Positions 20,210-45,113 of a stretch of 64,000 nt of DNA are shown in pieces (the first letter of the stretch is position 1; every line of letters begins with the position of its first letter). The notes under the pieces were generated by a model. The model was not told the DNA's origin and ran no database searches. It was given only the letters and a program-made list of their open reading frames with translations. A program made the translations under genes and the position numbers. The DNA is from Candidatus Pararuminococcus gallinarum (GTDB taxonomy: Bacteria; Bacillota; Clostridia; Oscillospirales; Ruminococcaceae), in contig CAJFSX010000001.1 in the NCBI GenBank assembly GCA_904419775.1, positions 1-64,000 on the forward strand, given 5' to 3'.

Positions 20210-20527
20210 TACCATCGCCTCCTCATAATTTCGCTTGTGCGGGGCAACGATCAAAAAACTGAACACCGAGCCGTGTGTTCCGTGCTCGACCATTTAAAAA
20301 ACCGGTTAAACTGTGGGGAAACCACACGTCTAGCCGGGACATCAGGCATGTTACAGCCTTACGAGAGCGCCAAAAATCGCGGAAAGACGCAATCTTCCCA
20401 AGATTTTTCGCGGTTTCAGTATTTTTTGTCGCCCGGTTTTAAATCGGACATACTCGGCGGAAATTCCCTGCTTCCAAGAGCAGCAACCTCCCGCTTCATC
20501 GCATATCTAGTGCAGTCGTGCTTAAAT
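20210..20527 (-). promoter_or_regulatory. Leader of the S10 operon transcript
   Basis: About 300 nt lie between the promoter near 20.54 kb and rpsJ. No conserved protein frame is visible. The segment has several short GC-rich inverted repeats but no clean terminator. A long leader on this operon suggests post-initiation control, but I recognise no known ribosomal-protein leader motif. Confidence 0.4.
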
Positions 20528-35843: not shown

Positions 35844-36596
35844 TTAAGTAAAGAGTTCTCTTTCCGGTAGCCGGAAAATTTCCTTCGCCCCTTTTTCCGA
35901 CGGGGGATAGGCATAGCCCTGGATGAGCACAGCTGGACGGGATTCATCCCCCTGGCCCATGAGCAGGGTGGCCGCGGAGCAAAGCTCGTCGGCAATGGCT
36001 TCCTCCGAGGACTGCATCACATAGCCATCCCGGTCGGCAGCTCCCCGATAGCTATGGATGGGGGCGATTCCATAGCATCCAACACAGACGCCGATGGCCC
36101 CTTCCCGGAAGGAGCGTCCATGGGTATCCGCCACAATCACCGCTACCCTCTTCCCAGTCAAGGAAAAAATACCATTAGAAATTCTCTTGGCACTCTGGTC
36201 TGGGTCGCGGGGCAGAGCAACGACCAAATCCTCCCCGCCGGCATTGGAATGATCCACCGCGGCATTGGCGCAGATAAATCCCAGCTTATGCCGGGTGATG
36301 ATTACCCCAGGCCTCACCTTCACTACTTCGGAGGATTCTTCCAGCACCACCTGCAAAATCCGTGGATCCTTTCCTGTCATTTGCGCGTAACGCAGCGCCT
36401 CAGGGGAAGGGGTCACCTGGGATAGGGAATAAACCCTTCCCTCTGCTTTAGAGATAATCTTATGGGCCAGAACCAGAATATCGCCGTTTTGTATCTCTCC
36501 CACCGTGTGAAGAGCGGCAGTAAGGATCTGGGGCAGGTCATCCCCGGCATGAATCGGAGGGATTCCCTCCGGGGCAAGCATCCGTATTCCCCTCAT
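35844..36596 (-). CDS. cofE: Coenzyme F420-0:L-glutamate ligase (CofE-like)
   Basis: 250 residues. CofE adds gamma-linked glutamates to F420-0 with GTP, the last step of F420 synthesis. Family features in order: G-D-I-L-V-L-A-H-K-I-I-S-K-A-E-G near residue 38, I-T-R-H-K-L-G-F-I-C-A-N-A-A-V-D near 98, and S-N-A-G-G-E-D with P-R-D-P-D-Q-S-A near 116-133. Then V-A-V-I-V-A-D-T-H-G-R-S-F-R-E-G and Y-R-G-A-A-D-R-D-G follow. No FbiB-type C-terminal nitroreductase domain is present. Its start overlaps the stop of the ECF component by 4 nt (ATGA type), so the two are translationally coupled. The partner genes cofC, cofD, cofG and cofH are not in this window; the protein could instead glutamylate a salvaged or related deazaflavin. 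Confidence 0.88.
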   Translation of the reverse strand: MRGIRMLAPEGIPPIHAGDDLPQILTAALHTVGEIQNGDILVLAHKIISKAEGRVYSLSQVTPSPEALRYAQMTGKDPRILQVVLEESSEVVKVRPGVIITRHKLGFICANAAVDHSNAGGEDLVVALPRDPDQSAKRISNGIFSLTGKRVAVIVADTHGRSFREGAIGVCVGCYGIAPIHSYRGAADRDGYVMQSSEEAIADELCSAATLLMGQGDESRPAVLIQGYAYPPSEKGAKEIFRLPERELFT

Positions 36597-37153
36597 ACCC
36601 GATCCCTCGCATGGAGTAGATTTGGTACCCGTTTGAGAACCACCTGATAAATCACGACCGTACCAAAAGAGTTGATCGCCGCCTTGATGAGGTTAAAGGG
36701 GATCAGGGCATAGGGCATCATTTGAAGTACCTTTTCTGTCCCGTAGCCAAATTGAAGGGGCAGGATGACACAGTTGACCGGCACCATGGCAATGGTCCGG
36801 GCAATAGAGCCAATAATACAGGCGATAATCAGCCCCTTGCAGTCTGGCTTCTTCTGGTAAATCCAGCCTACCACAAAGACAAACACCGAGGTAATCAGGC
36901 AATCGCTTAAGGGTCCAAAAATTCCTTTGGCCCGGAACATAAAATAAAGGATATCCTTGATAAGATTGGTCATGACGCCGGCAACCGGGCCAAAGGTCAC
37001 TGAAGCCACCAGGGCGGGAATTTCACTGGGCTCAAAGCGGAGAAATTGGGCCCCTGGAATCAGCGGTACCGAAAAGATAGACATGAGCAGGAAGGCAAGG
37101 GCCCCCAAAAGTCCCACGTAGGTAATTCGTTTGGTATTGACTTTCTGTTTCAT
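36593..37153 (-). CDS. RibU-like ECF transporter substrate-binding (S) component
   Basis: 186 residues, about six membrane helices. The N-terminal K-R-I-T-Y-V-G-L-L-G-A-L-A-F contains the AxxxA-like helix that docks on EcfT. F-L-R-F-E-P-S-E-I-P-A-L, then F-G-P-V-A-G-V and L-I-K-D-I-L-Y-F match the riboflavin-binding RibU family. The gene is preceded by a good ribosome site and no FMN riboswitch, unlike most free-standing ribU genes. It sits between an F420 reductase and cofE and overlaps cofE. The direct annotation is a riboflavin transporter; the context suggests it may import a deazaflavin such as Fo or F420-0. That part is inference. Confidence 0.85.
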   Translation of the reverse strand: MKQKVNTKRITYVGLLGALAFLLMSIFSVPLIPGAQFLRFEPSEIPALVASVTFGPVAGVMTNLIKDILYFMFRAKGIFGPLSDCLITSVFVFVVGWIYQKKPDCKGLIIACIIGSIARTIAMVPVNCVILPLQFGYGTEKVLQMMPYALIPFNLIKAAINSFGTVVIYQVVLKRVPNLLHARDRV

Positions 37154-37178: not shown

Positions 37179-37823
37179 CTAAATTCCGGTTAGTCCAATG
37201 CCGATATGCCCCCGTTTATAGCGTTTGTTCATGCCGATGATCATGGGAGTCAGCCCCTCGACGGTACGGGCGTTGAGAAGACTGCCCGCGTCAAAGCCCC
37301 GCAGGCCGATATCCTCTGCCAGGCTGATCAGTGTGTTCTTTGCCTCTTCATCCTCGCCTAGAATCAGGGCGTCACCTTTGACCTCTTTTTCCGGATTTTC
37401 CAGCATGGCCGCCGAAACAGTATGGAAAGCCGCTACTACCTTAACGCCCTCACCCAGCGCCGCCTGGGTCTGCTGGGCATTGGAGCCCTCTGCCGGCGCC
37501 TCGTAGCGCAAAGGTTTAAAGCGCAGGGGGATGGTCACATCCACCACAATTTTCCCTTGGACCAGTGGTTTAATCAGCTCCAGCACCGCCGCTCTGGCGG
37601 CGTCGGGGACGGCCAGAACCACAATGTCCCCTGCCTGGACAGCGTCTTCGTTGGCAAGGCCTCGGGCATTCTGTCTTCCGGTCATCTCATTGATCCGGCC
37701 GGCCGCTTCCTCCGCCCGCTCCTTCTGCCGGGAGCCGATGACAATCTGATGGCCAGCTTTGGCCCAACGGTATCCTAAGCCAAAGCCCAGATCCCCGGTG
37801 CCTCCTACAATCACAATATTCAT
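37179..37823 (-). CDS. npdG: NADPH-dependent F420 reductase (Fno/NpdG family)
   Basis: A 214-residue Rossmann protein transferring hydride between NADPH and F420. The nucleotide loop is G-G-T-G-D-L-G-F-G-L near residues 7-16; G-S-R-Q-K-E-R-A (about 31-38) is the NADP-phosphate contact. The conserved V-D-V-T-I-P-L lies near 94 and A-F-H-T-V-S near 132. Length and order match the archaeal and actinobacterial enzymes. AAGGAGG precedes the ATG. In this cluster it would reduce F420 to F420H2 for the neighbouring LLM enzymes, or reoxidise it. Confidence 0.9.
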   Translation of the reverse strand: MNIVIVGGTGDLGFGLGYRWAKAGHQIVIGSRQKERAEEAAGRINEMTGRQNARGLANEDAVQAGDIVVLAVPDAARAAVLELIKPLVQGKIVVDVTIPLRFKPLRYEAPAEGSNAQQTQAALGEGVKVVAAFHTVSAAMLENPEKEVKGDALILGEDEEAKNTLISLAEDIGLRGFDAGSLLNARTVEGLTPMIIGMNKRYKRGHIGIGLTGI

Positions 37824-37851: not shown

Positions 37852-38850
37852 TTAGTCGAGTACGTATTTGGAGATGATCTGCAGGGATTCCATGGGATCT
37901 ATCCCCATGACCTCGAAGGCCACCGGGTTGTCCACCCCGGCCTCGTTGAGGGCCTTCAGTTTTGCTTTACACTCGTCGGGATCCCCGGCGATGGCCAGCA
38001 GGTCCACCATCTCGTCGGTGACAAGCTCGGTGGCGAATTTCCCCTTCAGGACCCCTTCCTTAAAGGGCATAATCTGCTCTTCGGTCATACCGGTGCAGGT
38101 CAGGATGGGGTGCACGCCGTGGATGCCCACGAATTTAGCGATCACTTCTTTAACCGCCTGTTTTGCCTTCTTGGAGTCCTTGTCCACATGCATGGGGAAG
38201 TATGCGGAGATTTTGATCTCGCTGGGATCCCTTCCCGCCTCTTTGGCGCCGGCTGCGATGTGCTCCTTGGCATAGGCTACATAGGGAAGGCTTGTCATGG
38301 TGGAGAGCAGAACGCCGTCGGCAATCTGGCCGGCGATATGCAGGGCTTTGGGCCCCTTCACCCCCAAATAAACCGGCATGTCTTTGCGGTAGGGTACGAA
38401 ATCCAGCTCTACGTCCCCGGTCTTGAAGACCTCCCCGTCGAATTTCACATGGCCCTTGCCGATGAGCTCTTTAATAATCATAGCACACTCTTTGGTGGAT
38501 TGGATGGGCTTTTTAAAGGGAATGCCCGCCATATCCTCCATCCAGCGCTTGTTGGAGCCGCCAAGGCCCAGGATGATGCGGCCCTTGGAAATGGCGTCCA
38601 GGGAAGCGCTCTCCATGGCGGAGAGGACTGGGTGGCGGGTAAAGGGGTTGATGACGCCGATGCCGATCTGGATTTTGGAGGTCTGCACCGCGCAGGCCGC
38701 CGCTGTGGAGAAAGCGCCGCCATAGAAATAGTCCTCCGCAATCCAAACAGAAGCAAAATCATTGTCCTCAGAAGCTTTGACCAGTTTCATAACGGTGTCG
38801 CAGTCGTGACCGCCGTAAAATCCGAAGCCTAAATTATAGGGGTTCGCCAT
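37852..38850 (-). CDS. LLM-class F420-dependent oxidoreductase, Mer-like
   Basis: A 332-residue (beta/alpha)8 luciferase-like protein. It opens with L-G-F-G-F-Y-G-G-H and D-F-A-S-V-W-I-A-E-D-Y-F-Y-G-G near 33-47. I-G-I-G-V-I-N-P-F-T-R-H-P follows near 60-75, then G-R-I-I-L-G-L-G-G-S near 92. These are the marks of the subfamily containing methylene-tetrahydromethanopterin reductase (Mer) and other F420-dependent reductases, including the bulge segment before N-P-F. The substrate is unknown; no methanopterin genes are seen. It lies between the PLP enzyme and the F420 reductase. Confidence 0.85.
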   Translation of the reverse strand: MANPYNLGFGFYGGHDCDTVMKLVKASEDNDFASVWIAEDYFYGGAFSTAAACAVQTSKIQIGIGVINPFTRHPVLSAMESASLDAISKGRIILGLGGSNKRWMEDMAGIPFKKPIQSTKECAMIIKELIGKGHVKFDGEVFKTGDVELDFVPYRKDMPVYLGVKGPKALHIAGQIADGVLLSTMTSLPYVAYAKEHIAAGAKEAGRDPSEIKISAYFPMHVDKDSKKAKQAVKEVIAKFVGIHGVHPILTCTGMTEEQIMPFKEGVLKGKFATELVTDEMVDLLAIAGDPDECKAKLKALNEAGVDNPVAFEVMGIDPMESLQIISKYVLD

Positions 38851-38868: not shown

Positions 38869-40131
38869 CTATTTCATTTCATAGCCGTAATTTTCTTTCA
38901 ACGCTTTGGAAAGTTCCTCAAAGGTGGGCTGAATGGTAGGCACTGCCGGCAGATGCTCCGCTGTGGTGGCAGGATCTTTCAGTCCGGTAGAAGTGATCAC
39001 CGCGACTACTTTGTCATTGGGCCCTATCTTTCCAGCCTGGGCCAGCTTCTCAATGGCCACCAAGGAGGTAACCGAAGCAGCCTCACCATAAATTCCTTCT
39101 TCCCGGGCCAGCCGCAGCTGCATGGCCATGGTTTCCTCATCAGAGCTGGTCTCAGCGTAGCCTTCCGATTCCTTCAGCGCGGCATAGCCCTGGTAGGTAC
39201 CCTGGGGGCCGGCGATGGAGAAGGAGATAGACCACTCGGAGGGGACTACTACCGGCCCATCGGCGTTTTCTTTCAGGGACTGTTTCAGGGAACCGAAGAC
39301 CTCTGAAGCGATCATCTTGGTCTTTTTCTCAGAAACACCGATGGTCTGTAGGTCCTTAACCCCTTTCCAGACGCCGTAAAGGCCGTCGGAATAAGCGGAG
39401 GGAACAGCGATAAACTCAGGCAGATCCCCCAGCTGCTCATACAGTTCAAAAGCGATGGTCTTATATCCGTCGATGCCAAAACAGTTGCTGCCAATGGGCG
39501 GGGACATATATCCGCTGAGAGGATACCAGCCTTTCTCCTTAACACAGGCCTTCATGATAGTCCAGCGGTCGATGGGCTGGGGAGTCACCATGACATAGGC
39601 TCCAAAGGACTGCATGAGTGTTTTCATGGTTGTGGGGACCTGGGGCAGGGTAAAGATGACGCAGGGCTTATCCGCCGCAGCGCTGTAAGCCGCCGTGGCC
39701 GCACCGTGATTTCCGGTAGAGGAAACGGTGACCACCGGCCGTTTTTCTTGGACAGCCCGGGTCACTGCCACGCTGCACAGCCGGTCTTTATAAGACCAGG
39801 TGGGATTGACCGACTCATTTTTCAGATAGAGGTGATTTAGCCCCATGCTTCTGCCCAATTTCTTTAAGTGGAGCAAGGGAGTGTCCCCTTCCCCCAAGGT
39901 GACAGGCTCTGTCTCGGGCGCGATGGGAAGAAATTCACGGTGTTTCCACAGCCCCTTTCCCTTGGCGGAGAGGAACGTCTCCTTGGCTTTGGCTTTATCG
40001 CCAAAGTCATAGACGGTTGTAAAATTCACATTGATGCCCTTGGCTCCGCAGACAGGGCAGGCGTCGAAAGCCTCCTCCAAGGTGCCTTCATAGCCGCATT
40101 TGATACATTGAATTCCCTGATAATAACTCAT
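38869..40131 (-). CDS. Threonine-synthase-like PLP enzyme with zinc ribbon
   Basis: A 420-residue fold-type II PLP protein. An N-terminal zinc ribbon (C-I-K-C near 9-12, C-P-V-C near 26-29) precedes the catalytic domain. The Schiff-base lysine is in W-S-Y-K-D-R near 117, and the phosphate-binding S-S-T-G-N-H-G is near 140. Near the C-terminus is V-I-T-S-T-G-L-K-D-P. By family it would be annotated threonine synthase. But it sits with RidA and oxidoreductases, not with homoserine kinase, and family members also act as ammonia lyases. An elimination/deamination role releasing an enamine that RidA hydrolyses is plausible inference. Confidence 0.8.
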   Translation of the reverse strand: MSYYQGIQCIKCGYEGTLEEAFDACPVCGAKGINVNFTTVYDFGDKAKAKETFLSAKGKGLWKHREFLPIAPETEPVTLGEGDTPLLHLKKLGRSMGLNHLYLKNESVNPTWSYKDRLCSVAVTRAVQEKRPVVTVSSTGNHGAATAAYSAAADKPCVIFTLPQVPTTMKTLMQSFGAYVMVTPQPIDRWTIMKACVKEKGWYPLSGYMSPPIGSNCFGIDGYKTIAFELYEQLGDLPEFIAVPSAYSDGLYGVWKGVKDLQTIGVSEKKTKMIASEVFGSLKQSLKENADGPVVVPSEWSISFSIAGPQGTYQGYAALKESEGYAETSSDEETMAMQLRLAREEGIYGEAASVTSLVAIEKLAQAGKIGPNDKVVAVITSTGLKDPATTAEHLPAVPTIQPTFEELSKALKENYGYEMK

Positions 40132-40146
40132 AGCTTACTATTCCTC

Positions 40147-41337
40147 CTACAAGCTCAGTTTGATCAATTTCCGGGAGGACTTGGTTAAATAACGGGCACC
40201 GTCTTTCTCCACGGCCACCGTGTCCTCTACCTGGACACCGCCCCAGCCGATTTCATAGTAGGGAGTTTCCACATTAAGGGTCATCCCTTCCTGGAGGACG
40301 GTCTTATCTCCAGGTGCCACAGACGGTGGATCATAGACCTCAATGCCAATGCCATGCCCGCAGTGATGACGCTGATAGTGGCGCATCTTCTCCTGGGTTG
40401 TGCGCAGGGCAATCTGGAAGATTTCTTCCGCCGTCACGCCGGGACGGATGGCGTCAATGGCCTTTTCCTCCCCCTCCAAGATGGCGGCATAATAATCTTC
40501 CGCCTTTTGATTATTGCCCACAACAACAGTCCGGGCAATATCGGAACGATAGCTTTCATAGATACAGCCCAGGTCAAAACGGATCACGCTGCCATCCTTG
40601 ACTACCTGGGTCCTAGTGTTGATGGTATCAGAATAGGCCGCCCGCTCATCAATGGTGATGACGCAGAAGAAGGGTAGAGCCCCTCTTTTTCCACAGCCCT
40701 CGGCAAAAAGCCGCGCGATTTCGTATTCACTCATTCCCAGTTTGATTTGATCGATAGCCTCATACATGGCATCTTCCGCAATGTTGGCGCTGCGCTGGAT
40801 CAGGGCAATCTCATCCGGATGCTTAATTAGCCGGATCTGGGAGAAAATTCCCGCCGCCGGGATAAGCTCGTGATGGGGCAGCTCCTGCTCCAGCCATTTC
40901 CAGGCGGTAATGGGGGTCCGGCTTTCATCCAAGCCGATCCGGCCGCCGGTAGGGCACGCCGCCAAAATCGCTGATTTCAGCGCTTCGATAGCGGAAGGAT
41001 AACGGTGCTCAATGGCTTTTTGCAGCTTCTCCCCCAAGGGGCCAATTCCCTGGTCGCAGTAAGAGAATTGGAATCCTCCCACAGCCAGAATCTCATCTAC
41101 CTGGCCCGCCTCCAGCAGGGTGGGGACATCAGAAGCGGATGTGACGATGGTTTTTTTGTCCTCCGCCAGGTTATACACCAAATAGGACTGGGTTTTGCTC
41201 AGAATCTGCTGCCCTACATTGTCAAAGCCGCAAAGATAATAGATATTCTCCGGCAAAGAGGCCACCAACAGGTCCAAGCTGTTTTTTTCCATTTGGGAAC
41301 GGGTCCGTTCCCTTTTAAACACAAGCAAACTGCTCAT
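40147..41337 (-). CDS. M24-family metallohydrolase (Xaa-Pro dipeptidase/creatinase fold)
   Basis: 396 residues with the two-domain M24 layout: an N-terminal creatinase-like domain (about 1-150) and a C-terminal pita-bread catalytic domain. All five metal ligands appear in order: R-F-D-L-G-C, R-S-D-I-A-R, H-C-G-H-G-I-G, N-V-E-T-P-Y and Q-V-E-D-T-V. So it should be a dinuclear metallopeptidase cleaving before or after proline, or a creatinase-type amidinohydrolase. Start chosen at 41337, where GGAGG lies 7 nt upstream; the longer frame runs into unrelated sequence. Its place among LLM, PLP and RidA genes points to a catabolic role. Confidence 0.85.
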   Translation of the reverse strand: MSSLLVFKRERTRSQMEKNSLDLLVASLPENIYYLCGFDNVGQQILSKTQSYLVYNLAEDKKTIVTSASDVPTLLEAGQVDEILAVGGFQFSYCDQGIGPLGEKLQKAIEHRYPSAIEALKSAILAACPTGGRIGLDESRTPITAWKWLEQELPHHELIPAAGIFSQIRLIKHPDEIALIQRSANIAEDAMYEAIDQIKLGMSEYEIARLFAEGCGKRGALPFFCVITIDERAAYSDTINTRTQVVKDGSVIRFDLGCIYESYRSDIARTVVVGNNQKAEDYYAAILEGEEKAIDAIRPGVTAEEIFQIALRTTQEKMRHYQRHHCGHGIGIEVYDPPSVAPGDKTVLQEGMTLNVETPYYEIGWGGVQVEDTVAVEKDGARYLTKSSRKLIKLSL

Positions 41338-41404
41338 AGGCTTTCCTCCGCGCCGCCGCACCCGGCATAATTTCTCCATGTGCGGTAGATTCAAAAAGGG
41401 ATTC

Positions 41405-41437
41405 TATAAAAATGCGGCCGAACTTAGCCGGCCGCAT
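41405..41437 (-). terminator. Terminator between the LLM gene and the M24 gene
   Basis: A perfect 9-bp GC stem (41412-41420 with 41429-41437) followed on the minus strand by five T's. It follows the 42.5-41.5 kb oxidoreductase gene and would split the F420 cluster into two partly separate transcripts. Confidence 0.75.
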
Positions 41438-41482
41438 GATTTGCCAGCGGCAGGGTGATGTACCACACACCGGCAATATTGA

Positions 41483-42493
41483 TCATTTGAAGTTTGGCAT
41501 AACCTCTTCCGAGAACAGCTGCATATCCTCGATGAAAGAATCGACGGTATTTGCGGCAAACAGCATGGCGGAGCAGGTGGTCACGCCGGCTTCTTTATAT
41601 TTCTGGATCTGCTCGGAAATTTCATCCGGTGTGCCGATCAGGTTTCGCTCCATATAGTTGCTAGCGTCCTGATCCTTTAAGGTAGATTTCTTCAGGCTCA
41701 CCAGGTGTTTATAGAGCTGGGAGCTTTCAAACTTCTTGCAGGCTTCCTCTTTAGTCCGTGCAATAGAGATAGAAAGCTGAGGCGCAATGTCAATATCCTT
41801 GATGTCCCGGCCTTCAGCCTCGCACAGTCTGGCGATATCCTCTACGCCAGCCTTAATTTCACCAGGGGTCAGTACGGCGGGCAGCCAGCCGGTGCCATAT
41901 TTCGCAACCCTTCTACGGCCGTTGGGGTTGTTTCCACCGATGTAGAAGGGGAAGGGATCCTGAACCGGCTTAGGATAGGACTGTACCCCTTGCAGGTCAA
42001 AGTATTTGCCCTTCATGGTTACCCGTTCCTCTTTAAACAGGCGAGCAACCATCTCCAAAGACTCGTCCAGCATCTCGCCCCGGTTGACACCCTGGGCGGC
42101 CGCGCCTTCCATAGCCTCGAACTCTTCGCGGTATGCGCCGATGCCTACACCAATGATGGTGCGCCCACCGGAGAGCTGATCCAGAGTGGCCAGTTCTTTC
42201 GCGATGATAGCAGGATTGCGGAAGGGGAACACCAGCAGGGCGGTAGCTACCTTCAAAGTCGTGGTGTTTTCCGCAATGGCAGCCAGGGTGATCAGGGGAG
42301 CGTAGTAGTTGGGGGCGCAGCCGAATTCCTCGCTGACATAATGCTGGGTGGAAACATGGTCATTGCCCCACACAGAATCAAAGCCCAACTTCTCTGCCGC
42401 TTTGGCCATTTTAATATTGTCCCGCACATGGGCGAAGGGGATGGGGTACATAAGCCCCTCGGTGCCGGTAGGGATACCAATACCAAATTTCAT
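41483..42493 (-). CDS. LLM-class F420-dependent oxidoreductase, second subfamily
   Basis: A 336-residue luciferase-like barrel. It starts M-K-F-G-I-G-I-P-T-G-T and shows L-G-F-D-S-V-W-G-N-D-H-V near 36-47, A-T-A-L-L-V-F-P-F-R-N-P near 85-96, and L-D-Q-L-S-G-G-R near 104. A long segment then runs to F-Y-I-G-G-N-N-P-N-G-R-R-R near 185. The D-H-V and P-F-R-N-P motifs are those of LLM families predicted to use F420. It is only distantly similar to the Mer-like protein 3 kb away, so the two probably catalyse different steps. FMN use cannot be ruled out from sequence. Confidence 0.82.
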   Translation of the reverse strand: MKFGIGIPTGTEGLMYPIPFAHVRDNIKMAKAAEKLGFDSVWGNDHVSTQHYVSEEFGCAPNYYAPLITLAAIAENTTTLKVATALLVFPFRNPAIIAKELATLDQLSGGRTIIGVGIGAYREEFEAMEGAAAQGVNRGEMLDESLEMVARLFKEERVTMKGKYFDLQGVQSYPKPVQDPFPFYIGGNNPNGRRRVAKYGTGWLPAVLTPGEIKAGVEDIARLCEAEGRDIKDIDIAPQLSISIARTKEEACKKFESSQLYKHLVSLKKSTLKDQDASNYMERNLIGTPDEISEQIQKYKEAGVTTCSAMLFAANTVDSFIEDMQLFSEEVMPNFK

Positions 42494-42593: not shown

Positions 42594-43937
42594 TTATTTC
42601 CCAGAAGTTTCTTCTGCAACCGCCATGGTGAAGGTTTCACCCTTGGTGCTCTCTTTGTTCTTAAAGATGAGTCCGATAATGGCATAGATAACGATAGCGG
42701 AAAGCAGACCGATAATAGCCGGAATGGTCACGTTGGAAACCTTAGCAATGACAACGGCCAGGATCCAGGACACAAAGGCGGTCCAACGGAAGCCAGAGGG
42801 CATAAAGACTTTCTTCTTATCCCGGTGGATAATCCAGAAGTGGGCGATAATAATACCGGCAAAGGGAGGCATAACGGTGCCGATAAAGTTGAGCCATACC
42901 ACAAACTTGGAAGCCAGGCCCAGCATAGCGACTGCAACCGCAATAAGGATAGAGATGACGGTCCAAACAGGCTTGCTTACCTTAATGTGAACCATTTCAC
43001 TGAGGTTTGTAAACGCCAGAGCCGAGGAGTAAAGGTTGCTGTTGGTGGTGGTCCACAGGGCCAGGGCTAGGATGATAATGCCGGGGATGATCAGGCCCAG
43101 GATGGTCATGGTCTGGACAAAATCGCCAGTACCGGTGGCAACAGAGGACAGGACTGCCACGGCCTCATAAAGTCCGGAACCCAGGATATAACCTGCGAAA
43201 GCGCCCAGGATAACATGGGAGGCCTTTTTGCAGTAACGGGTAACGTCGGAAACCAGGGCGGCGCCGGTAACCCAGGTGGCGATGGCCGCGCCCATAGCGG
43301 TGGAGAAGGAGATGGGCTCCTCAGGCTGGATGCTGAAGATAGCGCCTAAACCGCCGCCATGCATTATAGTACAGATGAACAGGACAATCAAAAGGATCCA
43401 CAGAGCCGGGCTGGCAATGGTGCCAACGATAGACAATCCCTTAAATCCAAAGAGTGCGGCCGCGCCAACCAGGATAGCAAACACAATGACCGCAATCCAA
43501 GACGGGATCTCTGGCACCAGAGAATGGAGCGCGTCGCCAAAAGAGTTGAGCAGGACGCCGATGAATCCCATAGAAAGAATACCCATGAGCAGGGATGAAA
43601 TAATCGAACCTTTCTTACCAAAAACAATACGGCCAATAGAATAGGTGGTCAGACCAGTGCGATAACCGATGAGGCCGACGAAAACGGCAATAAGCATCAG
43701 TACCAGGTTGCCGGCGAAAACAGCCAGGATGCCGTTTCCTGCCGTACTGCCGGATCCGATGGTACCGCCGGTCATAAAGGCGCTCAGGGAAATACACCAG
43801 CCGATCCAGACGGTGGCGGTGGCGATCAGGCTCCGGCGTTTGTCCTTGGGGACGGTATCCAGAGAGTAATCGTCCTGAATGTCATTCTGGATGTCGCTCG
43901 TTTGTTTCTTAACTTCTTTGACTTCGTTTGTACTCAA
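42594..43937 (-). CDS. NCS1-family permease (cytosine/purine/hydantoin type)
   Basis: A 447-residue membrane protein with about twelve helices, of the nucleobase:cation symporter-1 family. The family loop W-I-G-W-C-I-S-L-S-A-F near residue 45 and the glycine-rich first helices (G-G-T-I-G-S-G) fit. So does W-T-T-T-N-S-N-L-Y near 295. I start at TTG (43937) since GGAGG lies 7 nt upstream; the upstream ATG frame lacks one. Known substrates of relatives are cytosine, purines, allantoin and hydantoins. In this cluster it probably imports the nitrogen compound acted on by the LLM enzymes. Confidence 0.88.
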   Translation of the reverse strand: MSTNEVKEVKKQTSDIQNDIQDDYSLDTVPKDKRRSLIATATVWIGWCISLSAFMTGGTIGSGSTAGNGILAVFAGNLVLMLIAVFVGLIGYRTGLTTYSIGRIVFGKKGSIISSLLMGILSMGFIGVLLNSFGDALHSLVPEIPSWIAVIVFAILVGAAALFGFKGLSIVGTIASPALWILLIVLFICTIMHGGGLGAIFSIQPEEPISFSTAMGAAIATWVTGAALVSDVTRYCKKASHVILGAFAGYILGSGLYEAVAVLSSVATGTGDFVQTMTILGLIIPGIIILALALWTTTNSNLYSSALAFTNLSEMVHIKVSKPVWTVISILIAVAVAMLGLASKFVVWLNFIGTVMPPFAGIIIAHFWIIHRDKKKVFMPSGFRWTAFVSWILAVVIAKVSNVTIPAIIGLLSAIVIYAIIGLIFKNKESTKGETFTMAVAEETSGK

Positions 43938-44045
43938 TGTTCTCCCTCCAGTTGAAAAAATAAATTTGTATCGCATTACCTCGCCTCTAAAGCCCAATGG
44001 AGGAGGGCTTTATCTTTACCTGCTCTAGGCAAATTGCGAGGCAAA

Positions 44046-44456: not shown

Positions 44457-45113
44457 TCAAATCTCCTTCAGGTAACGGTAAACGGTCTGCTCGGATACAT
44501 CCAGCGCTTGGGCGACTTCACCTACTGCGCCTTTGAGTAAAAACGCTCCTTTACCCTGGAGAGTTGCGACAACTTGTTTTTTCTCCTCAATGGTCATGCG
44601 GGAAGCGTCCACCGCATAATCCCCCATGGCAGTCTGGACCATTTGAGAGAGCATTTCTTCAAAGGAAGACGCAAAACTTTCTCTCTGCTCCTGATCCTCC
44701 CCATCTTGTATAGCAGTTGTACCCGAAAACATCAACATTCCATCCAATTGCTGACGAACCCGCAGGTAGGGCGAGATATCGATGTTGATACAAAACATGC
44801 CGATCAAATTTTTATCTTCATCTTTTATAAAATAGGTGGACGAACGGAAAATTCTTCCGTCTTCTTTCATCTTTCCGGTGTAATTGGTGATGTAATCCCG
44901 GTGTTCATATTCTTTACCATGGATCAGCCCCAAGGCAAAGTCGGTAATCGTTCCTCCTAGTTTTCTTCCCGTTAGGGTGTGATCGCTCAAAGCGATGATA
45001 GATTTTTCCAGGTGACGGATATCGTGGAGCACTACCTCCGCATTTTCTCCAAACACCTTTCCTATAAATTTGACAAAGGGGATGTACATTTGCAAAATGT
45101 CATCTGCTGTCAT
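44457..45113 (-). CDS. PAS/HTH transcriptional regulator, YheO/DauR type
   Basis: 218 residues. The N-terminal PAS_6-like domain (about 5-115) has V-V-L-H-D-I-R-H-L-E-K-S-I and I-T-N-Y-T-G, then Y-F-I-K-D-E-D-K-N-L-I-G-M-F-C-I-N-I-D. The C-terminal HTH_22-like domain (about 160-218) has E-V-A-Q-A-L-D-V-S-E-Q-T-V-Y-R-Y-L. Relatives such as DauR control amino-acid catabolism and often sit beside RidA genes. It has a strong promoter at 45.25-45.28 kb. As first gene of the run it probably senses a small ligand and controls the F420 cluster. Confidence 0.9.
   Translation of the reverse strand: MTADDILQMYIPFVKFIGKVFGENAEVVLHDIRHLEKSIIALSDHTLTGRKLGGTITDFALGLIHGKEYEHRDYITNYTGKMKEDGRIFRSSTYFIKDEDKNLIGMFCINIDISPYLRVRQQLDGMLMFSGTTAIQDGEDQEQRESFASSFEEMLSQMVQTAMGDYAVDASRMTIEEKKQVVATLQGKGAFLLKGAVGEVAQALDVSEQTVYRYLKEI

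Follow-up and report, generated by a model that had tools for sequence, protein, structure and literature searches.

ECF importers carry mostly trace vitamins and metals, and in folate salvage ECF import is followed by polyglutamylation, which keeps the folate inside the cell. RibU, the riboflavin S component of such importers, has been reported to bind further flavins besides riboflavin (PMC4418817), and a deazaflavin ligand is therefore plausible for a protein of this type. Coenzyme F420 has so far been regarded as something that every user synthesises on its own. In its main text, a 2021 FEMS review of F420 (PMC8498797) never mentions uptake, salvage or scavenging, and the review lists F420 production by Firmicutes as unresolved. 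FO has been reported in culture supernatant in at least one case (PMC11104420). In the literature searched, with partial coverage, neither an ECF importer of F420 or Fo nor an F420 salvage or uptake system was described.

The window, as we call the whole 64,000-nt stretch of DNA analysed, contains a cluster of ten genes, all on the minus strand and with intergenic gaps of 100 nt or less. We compared it with loci of Ruminococcaceae bacterium Marseille-P2935 (L050), genome G783 (L090) and genome G1046 (L096; another family of the order). From its first gene onwards, the cluster reads as follows.

44457..45113, minus strand: YheO-like PAS and HTH regulator, with homologues in L090 and L096

44046..44429, minus strand: RidA-family protein (PF01042)

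42594..43997, minus strand: NCS1-family permease (PF02133), candidate importer of the operon's substrate, also in L050

41483..42493, minus strand: LLM-class F420-type oxidoreductase (TIGR03619, 195.2 bits, cut-off 166.9), with homologues in L050, L090 and L096

40147..41394, minus strand: M24-family peptidase or creatinase-like enzyme, conserved in the locus

38869..40131, minus strand: threonine-synthase-like PLP enzyme (PALP), conserved in the locus

37852..38850, minus strand: LLM-class oxidoreductase closest to the F420-dependent Mer of archaea, scoring under the Mer equivalog cut-off

37179..37823, minus strand: npdG, NADPH-dependent F420 reductase (TIGR01915, 217 bits, cut-off 149.8; nearest PDB entry the F420H2:NADP oxidoreductase 5n2i)

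36593..37153, minus strand: RibU-fold S component of an ECF transporter, in a clade of cofE-linked proteins, and a putative deazaflavin (F420-0 or Fo) binding subunit

35844..36596, minus strand: cofE, F420-0:L-glutamate ligase (TIGR01916; PDB CofE 7uld and 2phn), of a clade of S-adjacent CofEs

The stop codon TGA of the S gene lies within the ATGA of the cofE start (...GTATGAGG...), and this 4-nt overlap is also kept in Marseille-P2935. An earlier note on this DNA had described the S gene as ‘fused by overlap’ to cofE and as lying next to the F420 reductase; the overlap is real and npdG is indeed in the same cluster, but ‘fused’ is a loose word for two genes with overlapping ends. Elsewhere in the window, an ordinary S10-Clostridia ribosomal protein leader was found at 20426-20507 on the minus strand (49.8 bits).

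The S gene encodes a protein of 186 aa that scores above the cut-offs of the ECF S-component profile PF12822 (79.7 bits, cut-off 30.7) and of the riboflavin S-component profile PF07155 (39.6 bits). Its best sequence match in the PDB was Thermotoga maritima RibU (5kbw, 3.5e-24), with Staphylococcus aureus RibU also matched. The predicted model (pLDDT 91) has the six-helix S-component fold and superposes on T. maritima RibU with a Z of 25.8 and an rmsd of 1.8 over 171 aligned residues, and on S. aureus RibU with a Z of 23.0, while the best non-RibU S component reached 17.4 and the others no more than that. Foldseek likewise ranked RibU above other S components. In both sequence and fold the protein is of RibU type, as the earlier note had read from its RibU marks.

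CofE, at 257.8 bits against TIGR01916 (cut-off 180.65), is an equivalog-level match, predicting F420-0 glutamylation. A folate system, with a FolT-like S component and a folate gamma-glutamate ligase, would draw on the match of the S component to the folate family TIGR04518 (56.8 bits, just below the cut-off of 60) and of CofE to TIGR04132 (76 bits), but the latter is far below its cut-off of 350, FolT folds rank well below RibU for the S model, npdG sits in the same operon and an S component under a THF riboswitch is found elsewhere in the genome; we regard this reading as extremely unlikely.

The genome encodes seven PF12822 proteins. One, of RibU type (L001), is preceded in its locus by a same-strand FMN riboswitch, and another, of FolT type (L004), likewise by a THF riboswitch; the RibU-type locus of Marseille-P2935 (L112) also carries an FMN riboswitch. 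It is these riboswitch-linked S components, sitting elsewhere, and not that of the window, that are the obvious importers of riboflavin and folate for the cell. An energising module is present: EcfT was found (L086), and two adjoining ABC ATPases were read by eye (L091), giving EcfA, EcfA' and EcfT.

As the earlier note had said, no FMN riboswitch precedes the S gene: none scored over threshold anywhere in the 64,000 nt, and neither this riboswitch nor riboflavin genes, which are usual but not obligatory for RibU, were found near the gene. In a tree of the four cofE-linked S components and 30 RibU-type sequences (T. maritima RibU, S. aureus RibU and 28 others), the four formed one clade (support 100/96, 99% of bootstrap trees), albeit on four long branches, apart from all 30, including proven and riboswitch-controlled RibUs. 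As the earlier note had suggested, ligand-site residues were compared with RibU. N127, N154 and K157 are kept in the cofE-linked S components; in S. aureus RibU they align with N131, N164 and K167, which we take to be riboflavin-ring ligands. S83-D84, present in all four, occurs in 0 of the 30 RibU-type sequences, which have M/A and H/N there. R119, R74 and K76 were considered as a phosphate site and set aside as a lead rather than evidence, being found in the window and L050 only and absent from the S components of L090 and L096.

These data bear on whether the gene could be a second, ordinary riboflavin importer that lies in an F420 operon by chance, perhaps feeding flavins to other enzymes. 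The top sequence and fold matches and the three retained putative flavin-ring ligands would suit such a RibU, and two ribU paralogues occur in many Lachnospiraceae (PMC12934955). We nevertheless consider it unlikely, given the FMN-riboswitch RibU-type gene already present both in this genome and in Marseille-P2935, the missing riboswitch ahead of the window gene, the separate clade with its own S83-D84 signature and a pairing with cofE that is conserved across three lineages (below). Anaerobic riboflavin degradation was also considered as the role of the operon and rejected; F420, luciferase-family genes and ECF genes do not come up in the Lachnospiraceae paper (PMC12934955).

Marseille-P2935 carries the genes from ridA to cofE in the same order as the window, with identities of 84% for S, 75% for CofE, 93% for npdG and 92% and 90% for the two LLM enzymes, so the window locus is no binning error. 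Among 397 genomes of the family, an S component more than 80% identical was found only in the window genome and in G507, where its sequence is identical to that of the L050 copy; we therefore take G507 to be the same species as Marseille-P2935. G783 has a 37% identical S component, also adjoining cofE. There (L090), S lies between two CofEs, with a nitroreductase resembling the FbiB C-terminus and with CofD, and CofC, LLM, M24, PALP and npdG genes are arranged divergently. In G1046 (L096) the order is CofE, S, nitroreductase and a second CofE, followed by regulator, LLM, M24 and PALP.

The pairing thus recurs across three lineages, with S components of only about 34-37% identity. Scanning 35 S-component loci for CofE gave two positives, L057 (G507) and L059 (G783), and none beside the other 33 (27 from relatives and the six others of the window genome). 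Kept in three diverged lineages and seen at 0 of 33 other S-component loci, the pairing is beyond chance. CofE over the cut-off is itself rare, in 1 of 120 relatives, 1 of 391 genomes of a class sample and 3 of 394 of an order sample, with the window genome counted each time. A single clade (95/96) likewise unites the CofEs that lie next to S, while G783 and G1046 each have a second CofE that falls elsewhere; from these trees, importer S component and CofE ligase seem to have travelled together in evolution.

Several features of these loci are recorded here as side observations. Nitroreductase-family genes lie beside S and CofE in L090 (8772-9383) and L096 (11560-12375), with none in the window operon; that of L090 resembles the FbiB C-terminal domain at 94 bits, below the cut-off, a likeness that may hint at a dehydro-F420-0 species. 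The second CofEs, of a different clade, are at 9465-10283 in L090 and 12419-13150 in L096. The PALP gene of G783 (L090 15105-16354) is split over two frames by a frameshift or an assembly error.

Other CofE candidates were rejected. Nine genomes of a further family in the class (f32; L041-L049) encode CofE-like proteins that scored 111-124 bits, below the cut-off. Five of these loci were opened and showed an unrelated context, with an RNase-H-like gene alongside and, in those with enough flank, a gene for a PilT-like ATPase. Plasmid CofEs were less than 60% identical (best 44% among the matches listed), with no annotated S component in the three neighbourhoods opened, and what one paper seemed to give as a Moorella ‘CofE’ turned out to be CoFeSP.

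Gene presence and absence were called by profile and protein searches. In the window genome (G000), CofH, CofG, CofD (two models) and CofC gave no match over the cut-off, and CofD, CofC and CofG gave none in Marseille-P2935. In an acidobacterial control, a joint query of FbiC (taken from L098, the record of an Aromatoleum plasmid), CofD and CofC picked up all four proteins, with identities of 55% for CofG and 45% for CofH; it gave no match in G1046 and, in the window genome and Marseille-P2935, only marginal radical-SAM matches (15.5-17 bits). Those weak radical-SAM matches that were typed were HydE, HydG or ThiH. G783 has CofC and CofD, and FO synthase gave no match there; as G783 is 91% complete, the enzyme may simply fall in a gap, and misbinning of the contig is conceivable. 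The evidence base is four genomes, three with estimates of 90% or better and two or three of them draft assemblies.

The window genome thus yielded none of the FO synthase, CofC and CofD that a self-sufficient F420 producer would carry, and CofE is, by these searches, the only known F420-making enzyme left. Gene identities, linkage, the clade and this lack of a known upstream pathway are read from the sequences themselves. The earlier note had asked whether the genome lacks Fo synthase but keeps CofC and CofD. No FO synthase was found, so that the refutation named by the note, a complete FO synthase together with exclusive riboflavin binding, does not hold in its genomic half, but CofC and CofD were undetected too.

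With CofE alone remaining, the F420-0 on which this enzyme is known to act must be obtained from outside or by an unknown route. Could F420 be made by non-homologous replacements of FO synthase, CofC and CofD, the importer serving something else? CofE, NpdG and two LLM enzymes do imply that F420 is available, and homology searches would miss unknown enzymes, but several simultaneous replacements would be required in each of three genomes, and G783 has normal CofC and CofD, making this very unlikely.

The rest of the cluster offers another possible cargo. The YheO-like regulator, LLM, M24 and PALP set recurs (window 38869-42493 and 44457-45113; L090 7095-7757 and 12880-18203; L096 13369-17672) and is apparently an undescribed F420-dependent catabolic pathway. 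The S component might import the substrate of this pathway, with F420 made or obtained otherwise, as the catabolic genes share its cluster in all three lineages. We find this quite unlikely: each locus type has its own candidate substrate importer (NCS1 in the window, Opp-type ABC in L090, TRAP in L096), S adjoins cofE rather than the catabolic genes, the F420 pathway is missing and trace vitamins and metals are the usual ECF cargo.

Taken together, these results make it probable that the gene encodes the substrate-binding S subunit of an ECF deazaflavin importer, paired with CofE for F420 salvage. The earlier note's deazaflavin salvage is now the best-supported explanation, while its version with Fo import and retained CofC and CofD fits the relative G783, not the window organism. 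With CofC and CofD undetected in the window genome and Marseille-P2935, no known route would lead from imported Fo to F420. A cargo downstream of CofD, most simply F420-0, should be needed by the window organism, by Marseille-P2935 and by G1046; in G783, with CofC and CofD, Fo would suffice. Because CofC and CofD were not found in the window organism, we lean slightly towards F420-0 (or a short-tailed F420) as its most likely cargo. F420-0 exceeds riboflavin in both size and charge, which speaks against the proposal, and there is no charged residue set common to all three lineages needing an F420-0-type cargo.

As to what is bound, how it is imported and trapped, and which way the electrons flow, we infer the following scheme. 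The S component would bind the deazaflavin head outside the cell and, once loaded, dock on the housekeeping EcfA-EcfA'-EcfT module for ATP-driven import. CofE would glutamylate imported F420-0 and so retain it in the cell, by analogy with folate polyglutamylation; NpdG would then reduce F420 using NADPH, and the two LLM enzymes would use F420 in the operon's own pathway.

The overlap of a vitamin-type importer gene with cofE, in a gut-type bacterium with F420-using enzymes but apparently no F420 synthesis, suggests that the coenzyme, or a precursor, is taken from neighbours like a vitamin. We give about even chances to the broader idea that some gut-type Oscillospiraceae relatives are F420 auxotrophs, importing intact phosphorylated F420-0 (or F420) through a dedicated RibU-related ECF S component and trapping it with CofE, with F420 as a shared vitamin. 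If salvage is true, deazaflavins are a traded vitamin between microbes, F420 enzymes in genomes without the pathway are accounted for, and an S83-D84 RibU homologue beside cofE is a genetic marker for auxotrophs. The named isolate Marseille-P2935 carries the operon, so the idea is testable.

The system resembles several known ones in part. With RibU (T. maritima 5KBW, S. aureus 3P5N) it shares the fold, about 30-34% identity and the N/N/K positions, but differs in clade, signature, FMN riboswitch and pairing with cofE. Certain Firmicutes ribU homologues without an FMN riboswitch (PMC4418817) are likewise RibU paralogues that perhaps serve another metabolite, but they adjoin helicase and phosphatase genes, with no F420 link described. 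FolT with folylpolyglutamate synthase offers an analogous logic, ECF import of a cofactor that glutamylation then retains, but with a different S family, a different ligase fold and a THF riboswitch. The complete bacterial F420 pathway (FbiC or CofG/CofH, CofC, CofD and CofE) shares CofE and NpdG with the window organism, which in place of detected FO synthase, CofC and CofD has the putative importer. What we propose as new is the cargo of a RibU-type ECF S component, together with a role in F420 salvage for which the literature searched has no precedent.
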